IMG/VR virus record: IMGVR_UViG_3300047276_000154
Location: 1 to 20,346 of that record
DNA: 20,346 nt
From: a virus
Direction: 5' to 3' (one strand)
The translations under genes were made by a program, and so were the position numbers. Shown piece by piece: positions 433-15,476 of the stretch. The stretch's first letter is position 1, and each line of letters opens with the position of its first letter. Below the pieces are notes generated by a model, which was not told the DNA's origin, did not search any database, and worked only from the letters and a program-made list of their open reading frames with translations.

Positions 433-1041
433 ATGCCGTTCCCTACCACTAACGCTCAGACTGAGCTTCAAGCTGTTAATGAAATTCTGGCGTCAGTTGG
501 TCAGGCGCCTGTAACCACCCTTGATCAAACCAACCCGGACGTTGCGATTGCATACGACACCCTTCAACAGGTGTCACGGGAGGTTCAGGCAGAAGGCTGG
601 ACATTTAACCGGGAGTATGACTATCCATTTACTCCTGATAACAACAAAGAAATCCTGATTCCCAACAATGTACTTCAACTTGATCTGACTCCTGACTACA
701 GAAATCAAGATGTTGTTCGTCGTAGTGGAAAGCTTTACGACCGCACTGCTCACTCCTATCAGTTTGATGAGCAAGTCAAGTGTGATGTGCTCTGGCTATT
801 TGACTGGGTAGACCTTCCTACACCAATTAAAGATTACATTGTTGCACGAGCTGCCAGCATCACTTCAACACGAATTGTCGGAGACAGTACTCAGTACCAG
901 ATGCTACAACAGCGAGAAGCGTACACCCGTGCAATGGCACTGGAATATGAGTGCAATCAAGGTGACTATACCTTCTTTGGCCATCCTCGTGGTGCCAACT
1001 ATTACAACAGCTACGAACCCTATAAGGCCTTGTATCGCTGA
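433..1041 (+). CDS. Tail tubular protein A (T7 gp11-like)
   Basis: The 202-aa product is close to T7 gp11 in length (about 196 aa). The N-terminal region TELQAVNEILASVGQAPV, followed by an EGWTFN motif near residue 57, is characteristic of the family: a ring protein joining the portal to the tail nozzle. The ATG at 433 is preferred because family homology begins immediately after it (MPFPTTNAQTELQ). An upstream in-frame start at 385 would lie within the terminator stem. No Shine-Dalgarno sequence is visible before 433. The stop overlaps the ATG of the nozzle protein gene (TGATG at 1039-1043), matching the fixed gp11-gp12 order in T7-like phages. Confidence 0.95.
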   Translation: MPFPTTNAQTELQAVNEILASVGQAPVTTLDQTNPDVAIAYDTLQQVSREVQAEGWTFNREYDYPFTPDNNKEILIPNNVLQLDLTPDYRNQDVVRRSGKLYDRTAHSYQFDEQVKCDVLWLFDWVDLPTPIKDYIVARAASITSTRIVGDSTQYQMLQQREAYTRAMALEYECNQGDYTFFGHPRGANYYNSYEPYKALYR

Positions 1042-3443
1042 TGGCAAGTGTTACTCAACGAATTCCTAGTTTCCTTGGTGGTGTATCAAGGCAGCCAGAT
1101 GACAAGAAACTTCCTGGTCAAGTACGGGAAGCAATTAATAGCTACGCAGATCCTACTTATGGGCTGTCAAAGAGGCCTGGAACTAAGTGGTTGATAAACC
1201 TGTCTTCCACTACCAATGAGTACCAGAACGGTAAGTGGTTCTACATTAACCGTACCTCTACTGAGAAGTATATTGGTGTGATGTATGGAGCCAATATCAA
1301 GATCTGGAATGTTCTTAATCCTTCCGCTACTGTTACCGTAACTAATACTGGTTCCAGCTATTTAAGTTATGGCAGCTCTACTGCTAAGAACAGCCTGCAA
1401 GTACTGACTGTACAAGATAAGACTATCGTCGTAAATAACACAAAGACAGTCACTACTCAAGCAGCGCCAAGCTTCACAGCCAAGAGCAAAGCTACCATTC
1501 GCCTTCTGAGTGTTGAATATGGAGCTGAGTACTACATTAAGATTGGCAGTGCTGCCGCATACAGCTTTACCACTAAAAACACCGAAGATCCAGCATTAAA
1601 CAATACAACTAACACGAAGGTCTTAAATGCAACTGATGTGTTGGATCAGATCTTCAATAATCTGGTTCTCCCTGCAGGCGTTACCAAGTACAAGTACAAG
1701 GGTTCCATCGAACTAGAAAGCTCTAGTGCATTCACGGTTGAAGTACGAGGCGGTATTAGCGGAGAATCCCTGAAGGTCATTCAGGACGAGATCACTGTCT
1801 TCCCTGAAGCTCCTAGTGAGTCAAGGCATGGACGTGTGCTTCAAGTAAATAACACAGCGAATAAGGAAGACACTTACTACATCAAGTTCTTTGCTGACGA
1901 TGGTATTGGTGGTAAGGGTGTATGGGAAGAGACAGTATCTCCTAGTGTTTCAAAGGGATTAACTGCTTCCACAATGCCTCACGAGCTGATCAACACAGCC
2001 CTGAACACATTTACCTTCCAACCGATCACCTGGGATGAACGTCTTGTTGGTGATGATACCTCCAATGAACACCCAAGCTTTGTTGGTAAACAGATTCAAC
2101 AAGCATTCTTTCACAATAACAGACTAGGCTTCCTCACTGATGACAATGTGTCAATGAGTCAAGCTGGTGAGTTTTACAACTTTTACCACGCTTCTGCTCT
2201 GACACAGGTAGATAGCGATCCTGTTGATCTTAGTTGTTCCAGCTTAAGGCCTGCTGTGCTTCATGCTGTACTACCAGCTGCTCAGGGTCTTGTCCTGTTT
2301 AGCACAGGGCAGCAGTTCCTGATGTATTCGGACGATGGGATACTGACTCCTACAAAGACAGTAATCAGAACCATCTCTAACTACGAGAACGATCCTCTGA
2401 TTGATCCTGTGGATGTAGGGACCAACATGGTCTTCCTGAGTAAGTCTCCAGGGTATACCCGTATCTACGGCATGTTGACCCGTGGTCAGCAGGAGAACCC
2501 TGATGTTCTGGATATTGGCCGTATTGTATCTGAGTGGATTCCTGACACGGTTACAGATCTAATTGCATCACCTCAGAACTCTTTCATCGCAATGTATGGA
2601 ACAGGCACTGAGTATGTCTATTTCTACCGCACCTATACAGTTGGTGAGGATCGTGTCATGCAGGCATGGTTCAACTGGAAGATGCAAGGAAACACACAGT
2701 TCATTGCCATTGATAGCGACGACCTGTACACAGTCACATATCAGAGTGGTCAGTACACGTTGTGCAAAGCAAACCTTACTCAGACTCCTGATGAAGCAAT
2801 TCTGAGGGCTGACAGTGGACAAGTGGTTCAGCTGTGTCTTGATCAATACGCTAACCCAACCAGTATCACTTACAACACGACTACCAAAGTCAATAGGTGC
2901 TACCTGCCATACAAGGACATTTCTGGTCTAGAGCCGCAGGTCATCATTGCTGATCCTGCTAACACCGGAGAGTCTGGTTATACCGCTATCACTATTCGTG
3001 GTACTGATGGCACCGGACCATACTTTGAGTTTATTGGTGATAACTACTCAGCTCAAAGGACAAAGGTCTATGTTGGATTTAGGTATAACTTTGATGTTCA
3101 GCTGCCAACTATCTACTACCAAGTGGCGCAGAATACCTCCGACTATACAGCTAATCTAACTATCTCACGAGTCAAGGTATCGGTTGGCCTGTCCAGCAAC
3201 GTTGGCTTCAAAGTAAAAGCTATGGGTAATCCTGAGTGGTATGACGTTCAGTCAGTTCAGGATGCCGACTACTACTTAGCCAATGACGTTCCACTGAATG
3301 AGCAAACTGTGTACACACTACCTATTCATCAACGTAATTCTAACTTCACCCTAAGGGTCTTTAGTGACTCACCATTCCCGATCTCTCTTACTTCGATGAT
3401 GTGGGAAGGGAACTACTCACCACGGTTCTATAGGAGGGCTTGA
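1041..3443 (+). CDS. Tail tubular protein B, nozzle (T7 gp12-like)
   Basis: The 800-aa product nearly equals T7 gp12 (794 aa). The N-terminus has the family signature: a short MASVTQRIPSFLGGVSRQPD segment, then GLSKRPGTKW around residues 41-50. This corresponds to the GGISQQPD and GLQKRPP motifs of T7 gp12. The protein forms the tubular nozzle of the short tail, binds the gp11-like ring above it and carries the fibres at the interface. The rest is the expected beta-rich sequence, with PSFVGKQIQQAFFHNNRLGF near residue 345 as another conserved block. Its start is translationally coupled to the preceding gene by a 1-nt overlap. No anomalies were seen. Confidence 0.96.
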   Translation: MASVTQRIPSFLGGVSRQPDDKKLPGQVREAINSYADPTYGLSKRPGTKWLINLSSTTNEYQNGKWFYINRTSTEKYIGVMYGANIKIWNVLNPSATVTVTNTGSSYLSYGSSTAKNSLQVLTVQDKTIVVNNTKTVTTQAAPSFTAKSKATIRLLSVEYGAEYYIKIGSAAAYSFTTKNTEDPALNNTTNTKVLNATDVLDQIFNNLVLPAGVTKYKYKGSIELESSSAFTVEVRGGISGESLKVIQDEITVFPEAPSESRHGRVLQVNNTANKEDTYYIKFFADDGIGGKGVWEETVSPSVSKGLTASTMPHELINTALNTFTFQPITWDERLVGDDTSNEHPSFVGKQIQQAFFHNNRLGFLTDDNVSMSQAGEFYNFYHASALTQVDSDPVDLSCSSLRPAVLHAVLPAAQGLVLFSTGQQFLMYSDDGILTPTKTVIRTISNYENDPLIDPVDVGTNMVFLSKSPGYTRIYGMLTRGQQENPDVLDIGRIVSEWIPDTVTDLIASPQNSFIAMYGTGTEYVYFYRTYTVGEDRVMQAWFNWKMQGNTQFIAIDSDDLYTVTYQSGQYTLCKANLTQTPDEAILRADSGQVVQLCLDQYANPTSITYNTTTKVNRCYLPYKDISGLEPQVIIADPANTGESGYTAITIRGTDGTGPYFEFIGDNYSAQRTKVYVGFRYNFDVQLPTIYYQVAQNTSDYTANLTISRVKVSVGLSSNVGFKVKAMGNPEWYDVQSVQDADYYLANDVPLNEQTVYTLPIHQRNSNFTLRVFSDSPFPISLTSMMWEGNYSPRFYRRA
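3432..3437 (+). promoter_or_regulatory. Strong ribosome binding site for the gp14-like gene
   Basis: A perfect AGGAGG lies 9 nt before ATG 3447, inside the last codons of the nozzle gene. Most genes in this window lack any such motif. It sets the start of the gp14-like gene and suggests high translation. Confidence 0.75.
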
Positions 3444-3446
3444 TAG

Positions 3447-4517
3447 ATGGCTAATCCATGGGGAGGCCTAACTGATGGTTTTGGCTATGACGCAGTTAGC
3501 GGCGTAGCTAATATTGCCTCCAACCTGTACGGGTCTATACAGCAAACTAACTACGCTAACGCTGCTAGCTCTGCTACAAATAAGTACAACTCACAGCTGT
3601 ACCGCTATAACTGGCGTGAAGCAAAGCGTGACTATAGATTTGCTAATCGTGGAGTCAACATAGCTCGTCAAAACGAAACGGCTGAGCGTGGTTGGAGAGA
3701 CCAGACTGCATTACTCGACTATCAGCACGGAATGGCAATCCGTGACTACGAGTACAACATGCAAATGCGTGCTTATAACAAGTCTGAAGAGACATATAAG
3801 CAACAACTTAACTTCAACAACATGGCTGCACAAGTAGCCATGGAATCTGAAGATAGGTGGATGGATGAAAGGTTTAAGGAAACAGCTTTTGCTAATCAAG
3901 ATCTGATGGTACAGCTGCTTCAAGAGGAGGGTAAGTCTGGGCTACTACAAGCTGGTAGGTCAGCTGGTAAGGCCGTTCAGTCTGCTATGGCAGCTGCTGG
4001 CCGCAATCAAGCCATCCTCGTTGAATCACTTGTTTCTGCAGAGAAGCAGTCTCAAGTTAATCGTAAGAAGATCCATACCGACAAGTACGGTGCTGATCTT
4101 ATGGCTGAAGCCAACCGGATGCTCAAGCCTGAAATTGCTCCTGCACTGCCCAAGCCTATCCCGCTTCCTGCGACTATCTTCCAGAATCCTCAGCGTCCTA
4201 AGAAGCCACCCAAGCCTCCAAAGATTGAACAACAAAGTAACTCTTCTTCTTGGCTTAGCGCTGGTCTCGGTGCTGCAGCAACACTACTTCCCCTTGCATT
4301 CTCTGACAAAAGGCTAAAAGAAGATATTGTCCATATTGGTCACTCAGAAAGTGGGATCAATATCTACGAATTTAACTACAAAAACGAGTATCAACGTTAC
4401 ACAGGTGTGCTGGCACAAGAACTTCTCGACTCCCACCCTGAGGCTGTCTCTGTGGGAGAGGATGGCTTCTATCGTGTCAACTACGACCTTATTGATGTAA
4501 ACATGCAACCAGTCTAA
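3447..4517 (+). CDS. Internal core protein (T7 gp14-like) with C-terminal S74-type domain
   Basis: This 356-aa protein lies between the nozzle gene and the large core genes, exactly where T7 has gp14 (196 aa). Residues 1-210 are mostly helical, rich in Ala, Gln, Tyr and Asn, as expected of an ejected core protein. Around residues 230-265 a Pro/Lys-rich linker (RPKKPPKPPK) is followed by a hydrophobic stretch (WLSAGLGAAATLLPLAF). Residues 286-356 carry the S74 intramolecular chaperone/autoprotease signature: S286-D-K-R-L-K291, then GVLAQELLDSHPEAV and GFYRVNYDLID. In S74 proteins the Ser and the Lys five residues later form the self-cleavage dyad, and cleavage occurs before the Ser. The domain is short: it stops just after the VNYDLID strand and lacks the long C-terminal coiled coil of fibre chaperones. 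The gp14 assignment rests on context; the S74 motif is directly visible. Cleavage is unproven. Confidence 0.8.
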   Translation: MANPWGGLTDGFGYDAVSGVANIASNLYGSIQQTNYANAASSATNKYNSQLYRYNWREAKRDYRFANRGVNIARQNETAERGWRDQTALLDYQHGMAIRDYEYNMQMRAYNKSEETYKQQLNFNNMAAQVAMESEDRWMDERFKETAFANQDLMVQLLQEEGKSGLLQAGRSAGKAVQSAMAAAGRNQAILVESLVSAEKQSQVNRKKIHTDKYGADLMAEANRMLKPEIAPALPKPIPLPATIFQNPQRPKKPPKPPKIEQQSNSSSWLSAGLGAAATLLPLAFSDKRLKEDIVHIGHSESGINIYEFNYKNEYQRYTGVLAQELLDSHPEAVSVGEDGFYRVNYDLIDVNMQPV

Positions 4518-7500
4518 ATGGATCAAATCTCGTACCAAGGGTACGCCCAGCGTACAGCATTTGACCCGATTAAAGCACCAGATCAAACTGCAAGAATCCT
4601 GGCGGAGGGTGAGCGCACCATACGTGGTATGCAAGCCGTCCGCAGACAGGAGCAGGAAAATCGTGATGCTTATGCAGCGGGTCTAGAGCGCAAGAATCAG
4701 TTAGAAGCCCGTAATCGGGAGAGTAACTACAATCTCCAGAAGGGTTTCAGAGAGAGCTATCAGCGTGCTATAACACAAAACTATCGAATAGAAGCTGAAA
4801 ATGCTGATGTAAGAGCTGGCAATATTGAGCAAACCACCAAGGCTCTTGCGTCATTCTCTCAAACGCTTGGTAAGCAGTTAGCTGTCTATCAAGAGCAAAA
4901 AGATGAAGCTGACGAGCTTGCAGGTTACAACGCAATCTTTGAACTAGGAATCACTCTTGAAGAGTACAACGCTCTCAAGGCTGGTGAAGCAAAGATTGAT
5001 GCCTTTGACCAAGCTACTAACAACGTCACACAACAGCTCCAGGAACGTGGTGTATCAGCTGAACAGATTGCTCAGATCCGTGGTCTGAGTGGTCGTAAGG
5101 CATACGGTGCCATGAAGGCGTTTGCCATTCAGGGTGCTGATAATTACCCACTGTTTAGGGCAGAGAACCAAGACCGTGAGTTTGAGATCAACGGTGAAGC
5201 TTATACGCTAAACACCGCACGTAACGCTGGTCCTGCTGTTTGGGCTGCTGTTAATGCTCAGCTTAGAACTGAGTACATGAAGCAGTATCGGGGTCTTGAT
5301 GGTAAGTTCCTAAACGAGTATCTCTTCAAAGGGATGCGTGAAGTTGAAAACCAAGAAAAGATCTCGTTTGCTAATGACCGTCAGAAGGCACTAGCTGCTG
5401 AGTACAAGGAGCAGCAAACCAATGAGTTTGTTACTGACTTTAAGGCTACTGGTGCTCAAGGTGTCCTTGATTGGATCCAACGTACATCAGGTGGTACAAG
5501 TGTAGGTCTTCGTAACCAACGCCTTGCTGCTATTGACATCATGGTCGATATGGCAGCTAGTGGTCAGTTCCAAGCAGCTGATCTTGAAGAGTTGCGTGGT
5601 CTTGGCGTCACACTCAATGGCTCTAAAGAAGCAAAAGCATTTGGTGACCTGTATGGTCGTGACCTTGCCAAACTTGAAAATGCGATCAACGACTTTAATG
5701 TTAAACAGTATCGCCAACAAGAGTTTGATCTAGAGAAGGATAAAAAGGATGCAATCACACAGCTCCATGATTACGTCACTCAAAACGGTCCTCTGAATGA
5801 AGAGGAGAAGAAGCAATATGAAGAGTGGTGGAGGCAGACATTCCGAGAGCATCCTCCCGGTGATGTAACTAAGTTCACTACTACTGAAGAATTAGCTGAC
5901 GCTGAGGCTAAACAGCAACTAGAACTTAAAGCTCGTTCAGGTCAGCTGACTACTCTTGAACTAATGAGTGGTAAGTACAGCACTACCCTCATCAACCAAT
6001 TCAGATCGTTTGCTAAGCAAGGCGATACTGCTAGCAAAGAGTTTGTCACCAGCACTAAGAAAGCTGTTGATCAAGCTCTCAAGCAGTCTATGGGTCTCCT
6101 GGCTGCTGGTCCTGAGCAGATGAATTCTCAGTTCTACATGATGCAGGCTATTGCCCATCAAGACCTTGAGGCTCGTGCTCAGAAACTTATGAGTCAAGGC
6201 GCTCAACCTGAGCAAGCCTATCAAGAGGCATGGCAGGAGATCTCTAAGGATATTGTCAAAGGTCAGAAGGGTGATGGTCGCTATGCACTCAAGATGAGTG
6301 GTGGTCAACCTGCTTCTGGTGATGATGCTGGTTTCCAATATCTTAGTCGTGATAGCGGTCAACAGCAGTCCATCCGTCGTATTTCCCAGATCCGTAACCG
6401 TATTGCTGAAGACCACAAGGTAATCACTAAGACGAACATCCTCACGCATGATGAGGTAGTAGCTGTCAAGAATGTCGCTAAAGGTGGTGCCATTCCTCGC
6501 TTTGTCTATGCGATGAATGACATGTATCCCAACATGACTCCATACGAGATTATGGACATCTTGATGGAGAGTGCTGGTCAGAAGCCTGTTACCCGTCCTC
6601 CAGCTGCTGCTGTCTATGAGGGTGTACGTCCACAGTTCCGTGGTCTTATGACCTTCCGTCCTTCTCTATCTAGGACTGCTCAGGCTTATGCAATGAGCGG
6701 TGGTCCTGGTGCTCCCTATAAGGGTCTACTGGATCTAATTGCTAGCAAAGAATCTGGTAATGATACCAAGAACGGTGGGTATGACTCACTCAATACAGGT
6801 GGATCGGATGGTGGGCATACTGCTCATGGCTCTGGGACGGGTTTAGCTAAGTTTGGTCGTCCTCTCACACAGATGACTGTTGGAGAGGTTATGGACCTAC
6901 AAGCTCGTGGTGTTCTTCATGCTACTGGTCGCTATCAGATTATTGGTGGGACACTCCGTGGTCTTGTAGCCCGTGGTAAGGCCAGTCGTTCTGATCTCTA
7001 TGATCAAGCTACTCAAGATAAGCTCGCCATTGCACTGATTCATGGTCGTGCAGGTAAGTTCTTCAGTGGTGAAGTAGACGCCGGTGCTGTTGTTGGTGGC
7101 ATGGGTAATGAGTGGATTGGCCTTCAATACGTCAAACCACAAGTTCTTGTAGCTGCTCTGAACACTGCCAAAGCAAACCTAAACAACCCTAATTTTGACG
7201 TGTCCCGGATGAAGTCCAGTGTCATCTACAAGGTAGGCGGTATTGGTCCTAGTGGTCCTGGTCACTTTGGTCCTCACCTTGACATTAAACAAGACAACGG
7301 TAAGTTCTTCTCCCGTAACTCCCTAGATAACTATGTCGGCTTCCAAACAGCTAGTGGTCTACTTCCTGTTAGCTCAGGTGTAACCGTAGATGGTGGTCAA
7401 TTTGGTGCAGGTAGAGACTATGGCTCCCACAATGGCTGGGACTATGCAATGCCTCAAGGCACAAAGGTAGTCCTCCGTAATGGTGCCTGGGTTGTAGGGA

Positions 7501-7586
7501 AAGTAAAGACTGAATACGGAGACAAGCTAACGATTGCACTGCCAGATGGTAGGCGGTTTAACATTCTTCACGGTAATGCTGTATGA
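4518..7586 (+). CDS. Internal core/ejection protein (T7 gp15-like) with lysozyme-like and M23-like domains
   Basis: A 1022-aa protein, about 275 aa longer than T7 gp15 (747 aa). Residues 1-730 are helical, Gln/Glu/Ala/Arg-rich core-protein sequence. The extra length is two wall-degrading modules. At residues 735-890 a lysozyme/transglycosylase-like domain shows DLIASKESGND, with E745 the likely catalytic acid, GRYQI at 804-808, and QDKLAIALI. At residues 905-1022 an M23-like metallopeptidase appears with its motifs in permuted order: GPHLDIK (H920, D922) comes first, then HNGWD (H971, D975), then ILHG (H1018). Ordinary M23 enzymes have HxxxD first and HxH last. In T7 the transglycosylase domain is at the N-terminus of gp16, the next gene; here it is at the end of the gp15 equivalent. 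The likely role is local peptidoglycan opening during DNA ejection. The start follows the previous stop directly (TAAATG), without a Shine-Dalgarno motif. Confidence 0.88.
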   Translation: MDQISYQGYAQRTAFDPIKAPDQTARILAEGERTIRGMQAVRRQEQENRDAYAAGLERKNQLEARNRESNYNLQKGFRESYQRAITQNYRIEAENADVRAGNIEQTTKALASFSQTLGKQLAVYQEQKDEADELAGYNAIFELGITLEEYNALKAGEAKIDAFDQATNNVTQQLQERGVSAEQIAQIRGLSGRKAYGAMKAFAIQGADNYPLFRAENQDREFEINGEAYTLNTARNAGPAVWAAVNAQLRTEYMKQYRGLDGKFLNEYLFKGMREVENQEKISFANDRQKALAAEYKEQQTNEFVTDFKATGAQGVLDWIQRTSGGTSVGLRNQRLAAIDIMVDMAASGQFQAADLEELRGLGVTLNGSKEAKAFGDLYGRDLAKLENAINDFNVKQYRQQEFDLEKDKKDAITQLHDYVTQNGPLNEEEKKQYEEWWRQTFREHPPGDVTKFTTTEELADAEAKQQLELKARSGQLTTLELMSGKYSTTLINQFRSFAKQGDTASKEFVTSTKKAVDQALKQSMGLLAAGPEQMNSQFYMMQAIAHQDLEARAQKLMSQGAQPEQAYQEAWQEISKDIVKGQKGDGRYALKMSGGQPASGDDAGFQYLSRDSGQQQSIRRISQIRNRIAEDHKVITKTNILTHDEVVAVKNVAKGGAIPRFVYAMNDMYPNMTPYEIMDILMESAGQKPVTRPPAAAVYEGVRPQFRGLMTFRPSLSRTAQAYAMSGGPGAPYKGLLDLIASKESGNDTKNGGYDSLNTGGSDGGHTAHGSGTGLAKFGRPLTQMTVGEVMDLQARGVLHATGRYQIIGGTLRGLVARGKASRSDLYDQATQDKLAIALIHGRAGKFFSGEVDAGAVVGGMGNEWIGLQYVKPQVLVAALNTAKANLNNPNFDVSRMKSSVIYKVGGIGPSGPGHFGPHLDIKQDNGKFFSRNSLDNYVGFQTASGLLPVSSGVTVDGGQFGAGRDYGSHNGWDYAMPQGTKVVLRNGAWVVGKVKTEYGDKLTIALPDGRRFNILHGNAV

Positions 7587-10500
7587 GCACATTTGATGAT
7601 CAGTTTGAGGTAAATCAAGATGCCTTGAACCGATATAACAATTTGGAGGCTATTAATCAAGAGATTCAAGCCGATCAACAAGCAGCCAATGCCGAAGCCG
7701 CAGCCGCCAAAAAGGCAGAGCAGGAGATGGCTGCTAAGAAGAATCCTGATGGCTCACTGAAGGGTTCCCATGAAATCAAAGATCCTAAGAAGTTCGGTCT
7801 TGGTGAGAATCTAACTGAAGCTGGTAATGCTCTTGCTGGTGGTGCTATTGATGCATACAACAGTGTTGTCAGTCTTCCTAAGTTCTTTGATCCAAAGTTC
7901 TACCAACCTGATACCCCACAGAAGCCCTACCTCTACGACAACCCGCTTGTCATCAAAGAGAAGCCCATTACACGTACTGTCTGGGGTAACGCTATCCGTA
8001 CTGTTACCGAATTCGGTATTGGTATGCTCGGTGTTGGCAAGGTTGGCATGGCCATCAAGGGTGTTAAAGGTCTGCAGATGGCTGCCAAAGCTTCAACAGC
8101 TGGTCGTCTGGCAACAGGTGCAGTACAAGGTGCTGTCTATGACACCATCAGTAACACCTCTCAGCAAGGAAACGTAGCAGCTGCACTCATTCAGATGAAA
8201 CCTGAATGGTCAAACGTACTGAAGCCTATTGCTACTACTGAGGACATGTCTCCTGCTCAGCGTGCTCTTATGAACACAGCTGAGGGACTGGGTATTGGCC
8301 TGGTTATAGACGGCGCTCTGGAGGGCGTTGGAGCCGCTGCAAGGAGCCTCAAGCCTACCCCTAAGGGGAATGTGCCCAATCCAACTCAGGAGGCCCTTGA
8401 ACGGTCTTCTAGGATTGAGTATGCACAGAAGACTGAGCAAGTACAACGTTACGCTCAGAAAGACTATGAGGATTCTGTCTATCGAAAAGAGAAAGCTGGT
8501 AACGATGCTCTAAATAAGACGCGTACTGAAGCTGCAATGGCTGGTGGAATGCCTCCAGAGGTCGTTGATTCAATGGTCACTCCATTCCCAACAAAGGCTG
8601 AGTGGAAGGCTAACAATGAAGTTCTCGGTATTGATCACTGGAAAGTCCTTGGTGAGGATGAGAAGCTACAGCTGATGGCTAAGGCTTCAGAGAAGCACCA
8701 ACTTGACTGGGGCAATACTCGTGACTTCTCTCGTCGTGCTGAGAAGCAAGGCAAGGCTAATCAAGAGGTTGCCGAAGATCAGCTTCTGGAGGATATGCAG
8801 AATGGTGCTCCTCGTCAGAATCCTGCCTATTACGATGAAGGTGATGTAACCGATAACCAAGCACTAACTAACACCTCACGTCCTACTAAGGGTGTGCGGG
8901 ATATGATCGCTATTCGTAACGATTGGGAGCAATCACAAGGTTCTCCTCGTGGTCCGCTTAGTGAAGCACATATCCGTAGGCTTGAGTATGGTGCTCCTGG
9001 TCTTAGTAAAAAGCAGATTGATCAAATTGCAGACCAACTAGTAGCTGATCCTGCATTCCAGGCTCTCTATGGTGGCAAGAAGACACCGCAGAACATCAAG
9101 GAAGACTTTGTGGAGGCAGCTACTGAGCTGTATCGCTTCCTAAATGATGGTGGTAGCCAACGTGCTATCACTGATCTAGATGAAACTGAACTTCGTGGTT
9201 TCATTGATAGCTTCTCCCGTACTAAGAATGGTGGTGAACTTCCAAAGACCGTTATTGAAGGTCGTGAGATCCTTAACCATTCACAGCTGATCGCTACCGA
9301 TCTTGTTATTGGCCAACTTACCCATGGTATGCGTGACCTTGCCAGGGGTGCTGTGAATGTTGCTGATGAAGTAGCAGTTAATGCTCCGGGTAGTGTAATG
9401 GATGGGATCATTGCTCGGTGGGCTGCCCTAACTCGTATCCGCAAGGAAACATCAATGCTGTCTTCCTGGAACCTGCGTAGGTTCTCTCCTGGCTTGGAAG
9501 ACCTTGGCACCATGATGGAAGCCTCTGACCGTGCTGTTATGGAGTCCTCTGAGGCCCTTAAACAGCTGGTTCGGGACAACGCTAACGATGAGCTGCTGCA
9601 GGTATTCAACCATTTTGTTGCTACTAATGGTGCTAACAAGTCGATGCTTGTTGACTTCAATGCGTTTATGTCTCGTAACCTACGTGGTTACCGTGATGGT
9701 GATGCTGTAGTCCGTAACAAGATCATTGATGAGGCAGCAACAATGGGTATTAACTCTATGTTGTCTGGTCCTAAGACACCACTCCGAGCATCTATTGGTA
9801 CTGGTATTGGTACTGTAATGCGTCCTGTTGCTACCATTGTAGGTAGCCTTGGGCAGGCAGATAAAGAAGGTGTTATCCGTGGTGCATACGCTTCTCTTGG
9901 AGCTATGTACGAATCCATTGGTGAGTCGTGGAAGCGTGCTGTAGCTGACTTCCACGCCTACACACAGATGGAAGATGGATGGCGTGGTGTTATGCCTAAC
10001 GCTAAGGACTATGAGTGGGAGGCACTGAAGGAGAGTGCCAAGCTTTACGGCTCAGACGGAGACAAGGCGACCATGGAGATCGCTAACTTCCTCCGTACGA
10101 TGAATAAGCTGCCTATCTTCAACTACGGTCCCAGGATCCTCCAGGCCTCTGATACGTTCTTTAAGAACATGATCGGTCGTGCCTCTATCAGGCAACGTGC
10201 CGTGATGGAAGTATGGGACCAGGCTAAGCAGATGGGTAAGGCTTGGGATGACGCTGATATTCCTCGTCTTATTCAAGAAGCTGAAGGTAGGTTTGAGAAC
10301 AAGATCTTCACCGCTGATGGTCAACTCTCTGACGAACTGGCTAAGTATGCCTACAGCGAAGCAGCCATGACAAAGGAGTTGGATGGTTTTGCTAAGAAGC
10401 TCGATGAAGCCTTCAAGGCACAGCCTTACCTCCGTCCATTCATGCTGTTTATGAAGACTGGTGTGAATGCTTTGGATATGACTTCCAAGTACACACCACT

Positions 10501-11686
10501 CGTTAATAACATCATCAAAGAGCATACAGATATTCTGACTCGTAACTTTGATGACCCACAGCTTCTAAAGTACGGTATTAAAACTGCTGAAGACCTAGAG
10601 ATCGCTAGGGCTACTGTTCGTGGTCGTCAGGCTATTGGCTACGGCTTTACCACGATGGTTGCTATGGCAGTTGCTAACGGTGTTGTTACGGGTAACGGTC
10701 CTTCTGATCGTCAACTCCGTGAAGCATGGCAGCAGTTTGGCTGGCGTCCTCGTTCCATTCGCATTGGTGATACCTATGTATCCTACGAGTCTCTAGAACC
10801 ATTCAATACCATTCTCAGCTTCATTGCTGATGTGGGTGATGCTTCTAAGGTCATGGGAGAGCAAAAGACTGGCGATCAACTCGGAGCTATTGCTTATCTG
10901 ATCTCTCAGAACGTAACCAATAAATCCTTTATGGCTGGTTTGTTCCAGGTAACTGAAGCATTCCAAGGTGGTATGAAGCTACCTCAGATTGCAGCTAACC
11001 TTGCTAACAACCAAGTACCTCTCAGTGGTATGCGGAACGAGATTGGTAAGCTGATCAGCCCAGGTATGCGTGAACTAGAGAAAGGATTCCAGCAGAGTAT
11101 CTACAATCGCAACCTGTACGTTGACGTAGTTTCAGGTGTTACACCAAACTACCGATATGACATTCTGAATGGCCAACCACTCCAGGACTACAACCTTGCG
11201 GTTCGTCTTTGGAATGGTGTGTCTCCATTCATGGTTAATCCAACTGTTAACCCAACTAGGGATCTGCTCTTCCGTAGTGGAGTTGATCTCAAGCTAACAT
11301 TCAACACTGGTCCTAATAAAGAATCTCTTGAAGGTCGTCCTGACCTCAAGTCTAAGTTTCAGTACTACGTCAGTCAGCAGAACATCGAAGGAAAACTGCA
11401 GGCACTATTCCAAGATCCAAAGGTCATTGAATCCATTGTTCAGATGGAGAATGATCGTGATAATGGTCGTCGGTACGACGCCTCTTCTACCTTCCACAAC
11501 GCTCGTATTGAACGCATTCTGAAGGAAGCCAAGGTTAATGCTTGGCAGCACCTGATGAATGATTCCGCTGACATCCAACAACTTAATCAACAAGCTCGTC
11601 TAGAAGCTCTTGCAGCCACCCAACGTAGACAAGGTAACTCACAGAGAGCTGACCAAGTTCAACAACTCATAGACATCGCTAAATAA
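7583..11686 (+). CDS. Large internal core/ejection protein (T7 gp16-like)
   Basis: The 1367-aa product matches T7 gp16 (1318 aa) in size and position. Its start overlaps the preceding stop (ATGA), so the two core proteins are probably translated in a coupled way. The N-terminus is Gln/Ala/Lys/Glu-rich and has no transglycosylase motif, unlike T7 gp16. Gly/Ala-rich amphipathic or membrane-active stretches occur around residues 145-175 (VTEFGIGMLGVGKVGMAIKG) and 230-255. Near residues 1010-1080 there is a hydrophobic segment (YGFTTMVAMAVANGVV), then a GWRPRSIRIGDTYVSYESLEP block of the kind conserved in gp16-like and other large ejected proteins. The protein is expected to leave the capsid with its gp14- and gp15-like partners and form the DNA conduit across the envelope. 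Identification of the C-terminal half is firmer than that of the N-terminal half. Confidence 0.88.
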   Translation: MSTFDDQFEVNQDALNRYNNLEAINQEIQADQQAANAEAAAAKKAEQEMAAKKNPDGSLKGSHEIKDPKKFGLGENLTEAGNALAGGAIDAYNSVVSLPKFFDPKFYQPDTPQKPYLYDNPLVIKEKPITRTVWGNAIRTVTEFGIGMLGVGKVGMAIKGVKGLQMAAKASTAGRLATGAVQGAVYDTISNTSQQGNVAAALIQMKPEWSNVLKPIATTEDMSPAQRALMNTAEGLGIGLVIDGALEGVGAAARSLKPTPKGNVPNPTQEALERSSRIEYAQKTEQVQRYAQKDYEDSVYRKEKAGNDALNKTRTEAAMAGGMPPEVVDSMVTPFPTKAEWKANNEVLGIDHWKVLGEDEKLQLMAKASEKHQLDWGNTRDFSRRAEKQGKANQEVAEDQLLEDMQNGAPRQNPAYYDEGDVTDNQALTNTSRPTKGVRDMIAIRNDWEQSQGSPRGPLSEAHIRRLEYGAPGLSKKQIDQIADQLVADPAFQALYGGKKTPQNIKEDFVEAATELYRFLNDGGSQRAITDLDETELRGFIDSFSRTKNGGELPKTVIEGREILNHSQLIATDLVIGQLTHGMRDLARGAVNVADEVAVNAPGSVMDGIIARWAALTRIRKETSMLSSWNLRRFSPGLEDLGTMMEASDRAVMESSEALKQLVRDNANDELLQVFNHFVATNGANKSMLVDFNAFMSRNLRGYRDGDAVVRNKIIDEAATMGINSMLSGPKTPLRASIGTGIGTVMRPVATIVGSLGQADKEGVIRGAYASLGAMYESIGESWKRAVADFHAYTQMEDGWRGVMPNAKDYEWEALKESAKLYGSDGDKATMEIANFLRTMNKLPIFNYGPRILQASDTFFKNMIGRASIRQRAVMEVWDQAKQMGKAWDDADIPRLIQEAEGRFENKIFTADGQLSDELAKYAYSEAAMTKELDGFAKKLDEAFKAQPYLRPFMLFMKTGVNALDMTSKYTPLVNNIIKEHTDILTRNFDDPQLLKYGIKTAEDLEIARATVRGRQAIGYGFTTMVAMAVANGVVTGNGPSDRQLREAWQQFGWRPRSIRIGDTYVSYESLEPFNTILSFIADVGDASKVMGEQKTGDQLGAIAYLISQNVTNKSFMAGLFQVTEAFQGGMKLPQIAANLANNQVPLSGMRNEIGKLISPGMRELEKGFQQSIYNRNLYVDVVSGVTPNYRYDILNGQPLQDYNLAVRLWNGVSPFMVNPTVNPTRDLLFRSGVDLKLTFNTGPNKESLEGRPDLKSKFQYYVSQQNIEGKLQALFQDPKVIESIVQMENDRDNGRRYDASSTFHNARIERILKEAKVNAWQHLMNDSADIQQLNQQARLEALAATQRRQGNSQRADQVQQLIDIAK

Positions 11687-11691
11687 GCGTC

Positions 11692-13641
11692 ATGGCTGTA
11701 ACTAGGAACACATATACAGGGAACGGGTCTACCGTTCTCTATTCTTTTACTTTTCCATATCTTGAGAACACCGACGTTAAAGTAAGCGTCAACGGTGTTG
11801 TTACAACTGCATATACATTTGCCAACGCTACGACGATTCAATTCAATACAGCTCCTGCTAATGGGGCTGCTATTGCAATTTATCGTCAAACAGATGATGC
11901 GTCACTCGCTGCTGCTTTCTATCCCGGTTCCGCTATTCGTTCACAGGATCTGAATGATAACTTCACTCAGAACCTGTATGTGACCCAGGAATCAAATCGT
12001 GATGCTACCGATGCAGTTGCACTCGGCACGGCTGCTGTTAGTACAGCTAATTCTGCTACGACAACTGCCAATGCTGCAACCGCAACAGCAAATACAGCAT
12101 TGTCCAACTCAAGTGCTGCTGTAAGCACGGCTAACACTGCTAACACTAACGCAAGTGCTGCTGTCTCGACGGCTAATACGGCTTCGTCTAACGCGACTTC
12201 TGCTGTCAACACGGCCAATGCGGCTACTGCAACGGCAAACAGTGCCGCTGCCGACGCGGCTACAGCTATCAGTACTGCCAACAGCGCGGTCTCTACTGCG
12301 AACAGTGCAGTAAGCACGGCTAACGCTGCGACTACAACGGCTGGTAATGCTGTGTCTACAGCTAACAGTGCTGTATCCACGGCTAACACAGCCTCTACCA
12401 ACGCCAGCAACGCTGTTACTACGGCTAATGCGGCCTCTACTACTGCTGCAGGAGCTGTTACTACGGCTAACAGTGCAGTGTCTACAGCTACGGGAGCAGT
12501 TAGCACTGCTAATACGGCTCTCAGCACGGCAAACGCTGCAGCTTCTGCTGTAGCTAATGCCATCCTGTATGACAATGTAGTTAACGTTGCTGCAATTCCA
12601 GCTTCACCAGCTAATAACGATGCGGTAGAAGTCGTTAATTCGACAGGCATTGAGAGCTTCACGCCTCTTGCTGGTAAGCCTGCTGGATTCGTAGGTGACT
12701 CTGGCCTCAGTGTGCGTATTGTCTACACGACCACCGGCTCTACCTGGAACTGGATTCAGTACTTCCCGAATGATCCAGAGGATCGGTACGGAGATGCGAT
12801 TGTTACCCTGCAGGGTGATGTATCCACTCTACAGACTGATCTCGGTCAGGCTCAGACTGATATCTCACAAGCTGAAACTGATATCCTAGCTCTGGATACT
12901 GTCAAGCTTGACGCAACCACTGCAGCTTCTACGTACCAGACGATCTCTGGTATGAGCACCTATGTTCAGACTACTGACGTAGGCACTGTTTCGTCTACCA
13001 TGATTGCTGATGGTTCCATCGTTGATGCAGATATTAGTGCAACAGCAGCAATCGCTCCTAGTAAAATTAATGGAACTGCCATTGTCAATAGTGATGCTCG
13101 TCTTACTGATACACGTACCCCAACTGATGGAAGTGTAACCACCGCTAAGATCGTCGACGGTAACGTAACTACAGCAAAGATTGCTGATGGTGCGATTACC
13201 GCTAGCAAGATTGCTGCTGGTGCGGCAGTCCCTGCTGATGGAAGTATTTCTACGGCAAAGCTTGCTGATGGTTCGGTTACTACTGCAAAGCTTGCTGATA
13301 GCTCCGTGACCGGAACAAAGATAGCTAACAGCACTATTAGTGCTGCGAAGCTCAGTTTTACGCCTGCGTCATCCTTCACTGATACCACTACGGCAACCTC
13401 AAAGACGCTTGCAAACTATGAGCGCTGCAATGTAACCGCTGCTGGTCAGACTATAACCCTCCCGGCATCACCATCTGCTGGATGGCAGGTGGCAGTTGGC
13501 GTTGGCGCTTTTACAAATACTATTATCGCTCGCAACGGATCTAATATTATGTCATTAGCAGAAGATCTGACTATTGACCTGGAAAACCGCACAGTCAACT
13601 TCTATTACGTTGATGTCACCCGTGGTTGGAGGGTATTCTAA
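11692..13641 (+). CDS. Tail fibre protein (T7 gp17-like N-terminus)
   Basis: A 649-aa fibre. Residues 1-105 are the T7 tail-fibre N-terminal domain that anchors to the tail: MAVTRNTYTGNGSTVLYSFTFPY, then YRQT, PGSAIRSQDLNDNF. Residues 114-290 are an Ala/Thr/Ser/Asn heptad array. Residues 291-375 include an EPRYGD-like segment (DPEDRYGDAIVTLQGDV), then a short coiled coil (LQTDLGQAQTDISQAETDI). Residues 479-555 hold ten-residue repeats of the type DGSVTTAKLA. The C-terminal 90 residues (QTITLPASPSAGWQVAVGVG ... ATRGWRVF-like end) form a distal domain that I associate with cyanophage fibres. It recognises the host surface. The start lies 5 nt after the preceding stop, without a Shine-Dalgarno motif. 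No obvious enzymatic depolymerase domain is seen. Confidence 0.92.
   Translation: MAVTRNTYTGNGSTVLYSFTFPYLENTDVKVSVNGVVTTAYTFANATTIQFNTAPANGAAIAIYRQTDDASLAAAFYPGSAIRSQDLNDNFTQNLYVTQESNRDATDAVALGTAAVSTANSATTTANAATATANTALSNSSAAVSTANTANTNASAAVSTANTASSNATSAVNTANAATATANSAAADAATAISTANSAVSTANSAVSTANAATTTAGNAVSTANSAVSTANTASTNASNAVTTANAASTTAAGAVTTANSAVSTATGAVSTANTALSTANAAASAVANAILYDNVVNVAAIPASPANNDAVEVVNSTGIESFTPLAGKPAGFVGDSGLSVRIVYTTTGSTWNWIQYFPNDPEDRYGDAIVTLQGDVSTLQTDLGQAQTDISQAETDILALDTVKLDATTAASTYQTISGMSTYVQTTDVGTVSSTMIADGSIVDADISATAAIAPSKINGTAIVNSDARLTDTRTPTDGSVTTAKIVDGNVTTAKIADGAITASKIAAGAAVPADGSISTAKLADGSVTTAKLADSSVTGTKIANSTISAAKLSFTPASSFTDTTTATSKTLANYERCNVTAAGQTITLPASPSAGWQVAVGVGAFTNTIIARNGSNIMSLAEDLTIDLENRTVNFYYVDVTRGWRVF
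12031..12561 (+). repeat. 25-heptad Ala-rich shaft repeat within the tail fibre gene
   Basis: Residues 114-290 of the fibre can be written as 25 consecutive seven-residue units without a phase slip, plus two residues. Typical units are SAVSTAN, NAVSTAN, TALSTAN and GAVTTAN, with Ala nearly fixed at unit positions 2 and 6. The DNA copies differ widely at synonymous positions, so this is an old protein repeat rather than recent slippage. It probably forms a trimeric coiled-coil rod. Confidence 0.9.
13126..13356 (+). repeat. Ten-residue repeats within the tail fibre gene
   Basis: Residues 479-555 contain seven decads: DGSVTTAKIV, DGNVTTAKIA, DGAITASKIA, a seven-residue insert, then DGSISTAKLA, DGSVTTAKLA, DSSVTGTKIA and NSTISAAKLS. 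This is a common fibre repeat that likely makes a beta-structured or mixed shaft segment between the coiled coil and the distal domain. Confidence 0.88.
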
Positions 13642-14706: not shown

Positions 14707-14916
14707 ATGATCACCATCCTTGGGGTCAAGGTTTCTTATGAGACCTTGGCCTTTTTTGCTTTATTTATTGCTTCTGAGTACCTTGGCATGACCAAGAAGC
14801 GCCGTGCTAACAGTGTTACTCAAGCAATCTCTATGGCGGCTGCCTACTTCAGCAAGACTCGTACTGAAGACGATAAGGTCCGCCGCTTCCGTCGTGCATT
14901 AACAGACCGAAAATGA
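14707..14916 (+). CDS. Small membrane protein upstream of endolysin (holin candidate)
   Basis: A 69-aa protein with one predicted hydrophobic helix at about residues 11-27 (YETLAFFALFIASEYLG), followed by a strongly basic C-terminal half (TKKRRANS ... RRFRRALTDRK). One membrane helix with a charged tail, immediately before an endolysin gene overlapping by ATGA, fits a small holin or pinholin. Virion membrane-associated roles are also possible, since similar cyanophage proteins have no proven function. The first third of the coding sequence contains a terminator-like hairpin at 14724-14757. An in-frame ATG after it (14788) would give a 42-aa product lacking the helix. No Shine-Dalgarno motif precedes ATG 14707. 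Confidence 0.7.
   Translation: MITILGVKVSYETLAFFALFIASEYLGMTKKRRANSVTQAISMAAAYFSKTRTEDDKVRRFRRALTDRK
14724..14757 (+). terminator. Terminator-like hairpin inside a coding sequence
   Basis: The 12-bp stem 14724-14735/14740-14751 (GGTCAAGGTTTC with GAGACCTTGGCC, including two G-T pairs) closes a TTAT loop and is followed at once by six T (14752-14757). It has all the hallmarks of an intrinsic terminator but lies in codons 6-17 of the small membrane protein gene. A second CCTTGG at 14719-14724 repeats the right-arm sequence, so an alternative pairing with TCAAGG is conceivable (attenuator-like). Function is unproven. Confidence 0.65.
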
Positions 14917-15476
14917 TTAAGCTGACTGACGTAGCTCGCTACTACAAAGGTCTGCCTAACCAAGTTAAAGCCCTCCAACTCCTTGAGAAACTCCTAGGTG
15001 AGGAGGGCCTTTCTGAAAATCAGGAATGGGTAAAGCTGTGGAGACAACCTCCCGCTAAACCCCCCAGTCAAACCTTCTCTAATTCATGGGATGGTATTGA
15101 AGCAGCTGCAGCAGCGGCTGGAGCTAAATTTCCTGAGGTTGTGGCAGCACAGTGGGCACTTGAAAGTGCATATGGCACTGCCCTATCTGGTAAGAATAAC
15201 TTCTTTGGAATTAAGGGACCGGGAACGGTCAAGACTACATGGGAAGACTACGGTAATGGTCCTGTGACCATCAAGGCTTCCTTCCAAGATTTCGCTACAC
15301 CATACGATTGCGTGGCTCACCTTGTCACTCAATGGTACAAAGACTATAAAGGCTATAAAGGTGTCAACCGAGCAGCTACTCGTGAAGACTGTGCGTATCT
15401 ACTGAAGCGTGAAGGTTACGCTACTGATCCCATCTACCCGCAAAAGCTTATTCGGTTGATGGAGCAGCATGATTGA
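14913..15476 (+). CDS. Endolysin, glucosaminidase (FlgJ-type) family
   Basis: A 187-aa cell-wall hydrolase expected to cleave peptidoglycan glycan strands at lysis. Residues 1-45 form a helical N-terminal region (YYKGLPNQVKALQLLEKLL). Residues 57-187 are the glucosaminidase domain: PEVVAAQWALESAYG with E84 the likely catalytic acid, NNFFGIKG at 95-102, FQDFATPYDCVAHL at 124-137, and GYATDPIYPQKL at 168-179. All are typical of the family. No signal peptide is seen, so export should depend on a holin. The two neighbours are both small membrane proteins, forming a lysis cassette. T7 instead uses an early amidase lysozyme (gp3.5), so this late-gene endolysin differs from T7 in type and place. The start overlaps the previous stop (ATGA). 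Confidence 0.93.
   Translation: MIKLTDVARYYKGLPNQVKALQLLEKLLGEEGLSENQEWVKLWRQPPAKPPSQTFSNSWDGIEAAAAAAGAKFPEVVAAQWALESAYGTALSGKNNFFGIKGPGTVKTTWEDYGNGPVTIKASFQDFATPYDCVAHLVTQWYKDYKGYKGVNRAATREDCAYLLKREGYATDPIYPQKLIRLMEQHD

Follow-up and report, generated by a model that had tools for sequence, protein, structure and literature searches.

The C-terminal part (residues ~898-1022) of a gp15-like ejection protein encoded in a 20,346-nucleotide stretch of viral DNA, here called the window, probably belongs to the M23 (LytM/MepM) fold lineage in circularly permuted form, and is likely a peptidoglycan metallo-endopeptidase carried on an ejection protein. On the evidence of sequence comparisons, both the M23 homology and the circular permutation are real, and the permuted domain is fixed in the gp15-like ejection protein across a large group of Synechococcus-type podoviruses. 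We infer for this domain an M23 fold, metal binding, catalysis and a role at DNA entry.

The window is part of a T7-like cyanopodovirus; the closest named phages are the Synechococcus phages S-CBP1, S-CBP3, DSL-LC07, S-SRP01 and P60. The gene order starts with a gp11-like gene (385-1041), nozzle gp12 (1041-3443; PF25675, E 1.3e-208) and an internal protein at the gp14 position (3447-4517), which ends in a Peptidase_S74 chaperone domain (E 1.9e-7), a domain whose customary place is in tail fibres. It continues with the gp15-position internal core (ejection) protein of 1022 residues (4518..7586, + strand), which has the permuted domain at its C-terminus, a gp16-like internal virion protein (7583..11686, + strand; phrog_6651, E 4.8e-224) whose first 4 bases overlap the gp15 stop, followed by a T7-type tail fibre (11692-13641). 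The 4518-7586 product matches the profile phrog_24152 (E 4.9e-46), and its homologues are annotated as ‘hypothetical protein’ in S-CBP1, ‘tape measure protein’ in DSL-LC07 and ‘internal virion protein’ in P60 (gp33). The gp14-gp15-gp16 gene order and the homology to annotated internal virion proteins identify it as a T7 gp15-like ejection protein, in agreement with the placement of the domain on a gp15-like core protein in an earlier note on this DNA. The gp16-like protein of the window gave no Pfam match, and no transglycosylase domain is recognisable in it. A separate gene for a glucosaminidase-type lysozyme at 14913-15476 (PF01832, E 1.9e-20) probably encodes the endolysin.

The permuted M23-like domain is placed at 7209..7583 (+ strand, as are all features of this protein) on the evidence of hhalign, shuffle controls, hmmsearch and AlphaFold2; position 7194, where the earlier note had the domain begin, is codon 893 of the 4518-7586 open reading frame. 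The three motifs described there are all present in the translation and in the order claimed. GPHLDIK (7269..7289; H920 and D922) corresponds to the last M23 motif, GPHxHF, and aligns with columns 97-106 of an M23 profile; HNGWD (7428..7442; H971 and D975) corresponds by profile and family alignment to the first motif, HxGxD; and LHG (7566..7574; H1018) corresponds to the middle catalytic His, with the new C-terminus four residues on, only NAV preceding the stop in the 1022-residue translation. The order is HxD, HxxxD, H, and the M23 order of HxxxD, H, HxH is absent. The joint of the old C- and N-termini (residues ~938-953; 7329..7376) is crossed by the tandem-profile alignment described below and is predicted to be a beta-hairpin, with DSSP strands at 51-55 and 58-61 of the AlphaFold2 model.

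A profile of 77 canonical M23 domains, nearly all from viral contigs, was compared using hhalign with an alignment of 33 family members in their native order, with probabilities in the range of 96-97. The C-part of the family matches columns 2-73 of the M23 profile (probability 96.0) in an alignment that spans the pre-motif segment P..g.iTS.FG.R, HxGxD, GTpV and the middle His, and the N-part, with GPHLD, matches columns 97-106 as a separate alignment. Permutation was examined by doubling the M23 profile head to tail and aligning this tandem with the native-order family—an equivalent of the search with a re-permuted sequence proposed earlier—and a single continuous alignment was obtained that extends from GPHLD across the joint as far as LHG (26-128 to 97-191), raising the score from 53.3 to 67.4. 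The observed gain of 14.7 was reached in none of 200 shuffles of the N-part columns, which gave at most 11.8; the N-part alone scores 29.0, compared with no more than 17.1 when shuffled. With hmmsearch the C-part recovers M23 domains including that of S-SRP01 (E 2.7e-11, in 84 sequences) and the N-part recovers M23 domains of an HxD type (E 5.4e-8); wherever both parts match the same canonical M23 they do so in swapped order (54/54; native order 0). Agreement from curated models is weak: in a C-terminal piece of 138 residues, the NCBIfam model MepM matches residues 39-129 (E 0.0019). The Pfam model reports M23 in 16 of the 33 members, the best at E 8.2e-4 and all below the gathering cut-off; the window piece scores 14.4 bits against PF01551 (E 0.04; cut-off 28.7 bits) and genome-level matches range from 12 to 18 bits, again all below it. 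Sequence searches of the PDB, with the domain alone or the whole protein, returned only noise. It is the profile alignments of both halves, the shuffle controls and the swapped-order matches, taken together, that bear out the permuted M23 homology put forward earlier, and a reading of the motifs as chance is very unlikely.

AlphaFold2 gave confident models both for the window domain (pLDDT 90.2, pTM 0.84) and for the S-CBP1-type domain (pLDDT 86.6, pTM 0.82), and their strands follow the order expected of a permuted M23, with one additional hairpin where the old termini meet. M23 was absent among the matches listed by Foldseek for either model against the PDB, and a search of BFVD with the same aligner did not find M23 beyond the permuted family. 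This result weighs against an M23 fold, although the aligner works sequentially and is expected to perform poorly on permuted folds. Family matches in BFVD are P60 gp33 (TM 0.77), whose BFVD model agrees with the AlphaFold2 ones, A0A6J7X0C8 (TM 0.76) and A0A510E7V3 (TM 0.59). The last of these is to the model of A0A510E7V3_3, a viral protein fragment of 1191 residues that matches window positions 7185-7583 at 23% identity and possibly represents a further permuted lineage.

At least 94 distinct homologous phage domain sequences were assembled after a widened search; a genome-collection scan found no relatives. The swapped motif order recurs in four near IMG/VR relatives, in S-CBP1, DSL-LC07 and P60, and in 94 distinct sequences overall, and the equivalents of H920, D922, K924, G973, D975, H1018 and G1019 are invariant (94/94 distinct domains). 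Where a homologous reading frame is complete to its end, the stop lies a few residues at most from LHG, so the C-terminus in the window does not reflect a local frameshift. Two domains (L203 and L227) have HHG in place of LHG.

Two readings would deny a permutation of M23 altogether. The domain could be a separate beta domain in which GPHLD, HxGxD and LHG are coincidental; the lack of M23 among the Foldseek matches would fit, as would the fact that the best Pfam match of the window piece is an SH3-like model (E 0.001), but both halves align by profile against shuffle controls, the two-part matches are uniformly swapped and the MepM model matches, and we consider this reading highly improbable. 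An ordinary M23 whose halves only seem swapped through a frameshift, an assembly error or a chimera has next to no likelihood and is refuted by the same order in 94 distinct sequences, among them those of the complete isolates S-CBP1, DSL-LC07 and P60.

LytM binds zinc through H210, D214 and H293, joined by N117 when latent; its catalytic histidines are H260 and H291 (PMC4594094). By alignment, H971, D975 and D922 fall at the ligand positions H210, D214 and H293, and H1018 and H920 at the catalytic positions H260 and H291, both of which are invariant in the 94 as to the residue present; the profile alignment thus agrees with the five correspondences claimed at the outset. The H-D-H ligand set of M23 is not found in the window, which has H971, D975 and an Asp, D922, instead of the last His. 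The substitution pointed out in the earlier note is present, but it is not bound up with the permutation: the same Asp is found in M23 domains of ordinary order. Canonical-order M23 domains with a TGPHLD[VI]K ending and Asp at the zinc-ligand His (L301, L309, L310, L313 and L201) lie on MAG contigs of patescibacteria, archaea and other bacteria and, for L201, on a viral contig; L303, in a genome, is another such domain. These HxD-type domains are a natural M23 variant separate from the permuted family, and are the ones to which the permuted N-part has the greatest similarity. Scanning genomes with the TGPHLD[VI]K pattern yielded only ordinary-order M23s and chance matches.

The family divides into two clades by the fate of the HxGxD His, which is kept only in the clade of the window (10/94). 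In the other 84 the loop is one residue shorter (RGSHGID, RGSFGVD, GSNGYD) and a His at the ligand position is absent; the neighbouring position is F or Y in 19 of them and N in two. All 84 have a His five residues before the Ser in an FxxHxxRGS motif (the S-CBP1 type; for example L005, L007, L024, L070, L203 and L227), and none of the 10 in the window clade does. This His aligns six residues before H971, by count the same offset as that of the catalytic residue Tyr204 from H210 in LytM, and it may have taken over as ligand or catalytic group. The split is probably the result of one or a few events on the tree, and the 84/10 complementarity does not therefore represent 94 independent observations.

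Upstream of the permuted domain is a lysozyme-like domain (residues ~721-870; 6678..7127) with tblastn matches of 36-46% to cyanomyovirus proteins annotated as endolysin or lysozyme murein. The glycan-cutting module in this slot has been exchanged between relatives—Glucosaminidase in S-CBP1, DSL-LC07 and S-SRP01, SLT in S-CBP4 and S-CBP3, and in P60 Phage_lysozyme2, slightly under the cut-off. The slot that follows contains the permuted M23 in S-CBP1, DSL-LC07 and P60, and in S-SRP01 and S-CBP4 an ordinary M23 that scores above the Pfam cut-off. These ordinary domains share the gene position, the homologous body and the preceding glycan-cutting domain, but are canonical in order, that of S-SRP01 with HxH and that of S-CBP4 with degenerate first and last motifs. 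No further M23 match is present elsewhere in the complete genomes of P60 and DSL-LC07. The gp15-like protein of S-CBP3 (L009:10167-13142) has an end without M23 and without any Pfam match that contains SYHYYGQAFD, which we take to resemble the M15 peptidase motif SxHxxGxAxD.

A tree of the protein body (first 640 residues; quick FastTree, midpoint rooted, with weak deep nodes) interleaves the permuted and ordinary forms: S-SRP01 groups with the permuted L025 and L026 (support 0.99), and S-CBP4 with the permuted L203 and L227 (support 0.86). The ordinary-order M23 at the identical slot in gp15 sisters indicates that the two forms have been exchanged, and exchange within one slot suggests that they are functionally equivalent. 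Wall-hydrolase domains are documented to move between homologues of gp16 and gp15 (PMC8954989).

We propose that the M23 fold was cut in the loop behind the middle catalytic His, with the old ...yaHLsk...GqkV... hairpin lost or split, and that the old termini became linked through a short hairpin. The M23 groove would still be formed, and most likely acts as a metallo-endopeptidase on the peptide cross-links of peptidoglycan; peptide cutting beside the upstream glycan-cutting domain would then allow the ejected core to pass the wall.

The permuted domain is probably an endopeptidase, either still active or active until recently. It could alternatively be a permuted M23 homologue without catalysis, as are the LytM domains of EnvC and NlpD, that now only binds peptidoglycan or props the core or tunnel. 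Loss of catalysis is possible in the clade without the HxGxD His (84 of the 94, some with F, Y or N at the neighbouring position), and the Asp in place of a zinc-ligand His in every member points the same way; but none of the 94 varies at the positions of H920, D922, D975 and H1018, the new upstream His is present in all 84, which would fit the replacement of a ligand or catalytic group, and the slot is otherwise filled by ordinary M23 domains. We regard a non-catalytic homologue as unlikely for the family. A more specific form of the favoured reading, an active permuted M23 lineage that has swapped repeatedly with its ordinary counterpart in phage ejection proteins and in which the metal site has moved (H-D-D in one clade, the FxxHxxRGS His in the other), is put forward tentatively, as somewhat short of an even prospect.

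Compared with peptidase family M23 (PF01551; LytM, lysostaphin, MepM/ShyA), the window domain shares the HxGxD, middle His, GPHxx, FG-R and GTpV segments and, in the predicted model, the order of strands within each half, and both halves can be aligned by profile; it differs in its permuted halves, in the Asp for LytM H293, in the missing hairpin after the middle His and in Pfam scores below the cut-off. The lytic transglycosylase of T7 gp16 and the lysozyme of the K1E and K1-5 gp15 homologues are likewise wall-degrading modules on ejection proteins, but cut glycan strands rather than peptides and are not permuted (PMC8954989). The NlpC/P60 enzymes, a cell-wall peptidase superfamily with circularly permuted members (LRAT-like, YaeF-like), set a precedent, although theirs is a cysteine peptidase fold with no relation to M23 (PMC6403190). 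No earlier report of circular permutation in M23 was found in the open-access literature searched. M23 ranks among the most widespread wall-peptidase folds, and annotation finds none in these cyanophages because the domain is permuted. The cultured isolates S-CBP1, P60 and DSL-LC07 are where wall cutting by the ejection protein can be tested, and if the domain is active, the M23 groove would tolerate both new termini behind the catalytic His and an altered ligand set.
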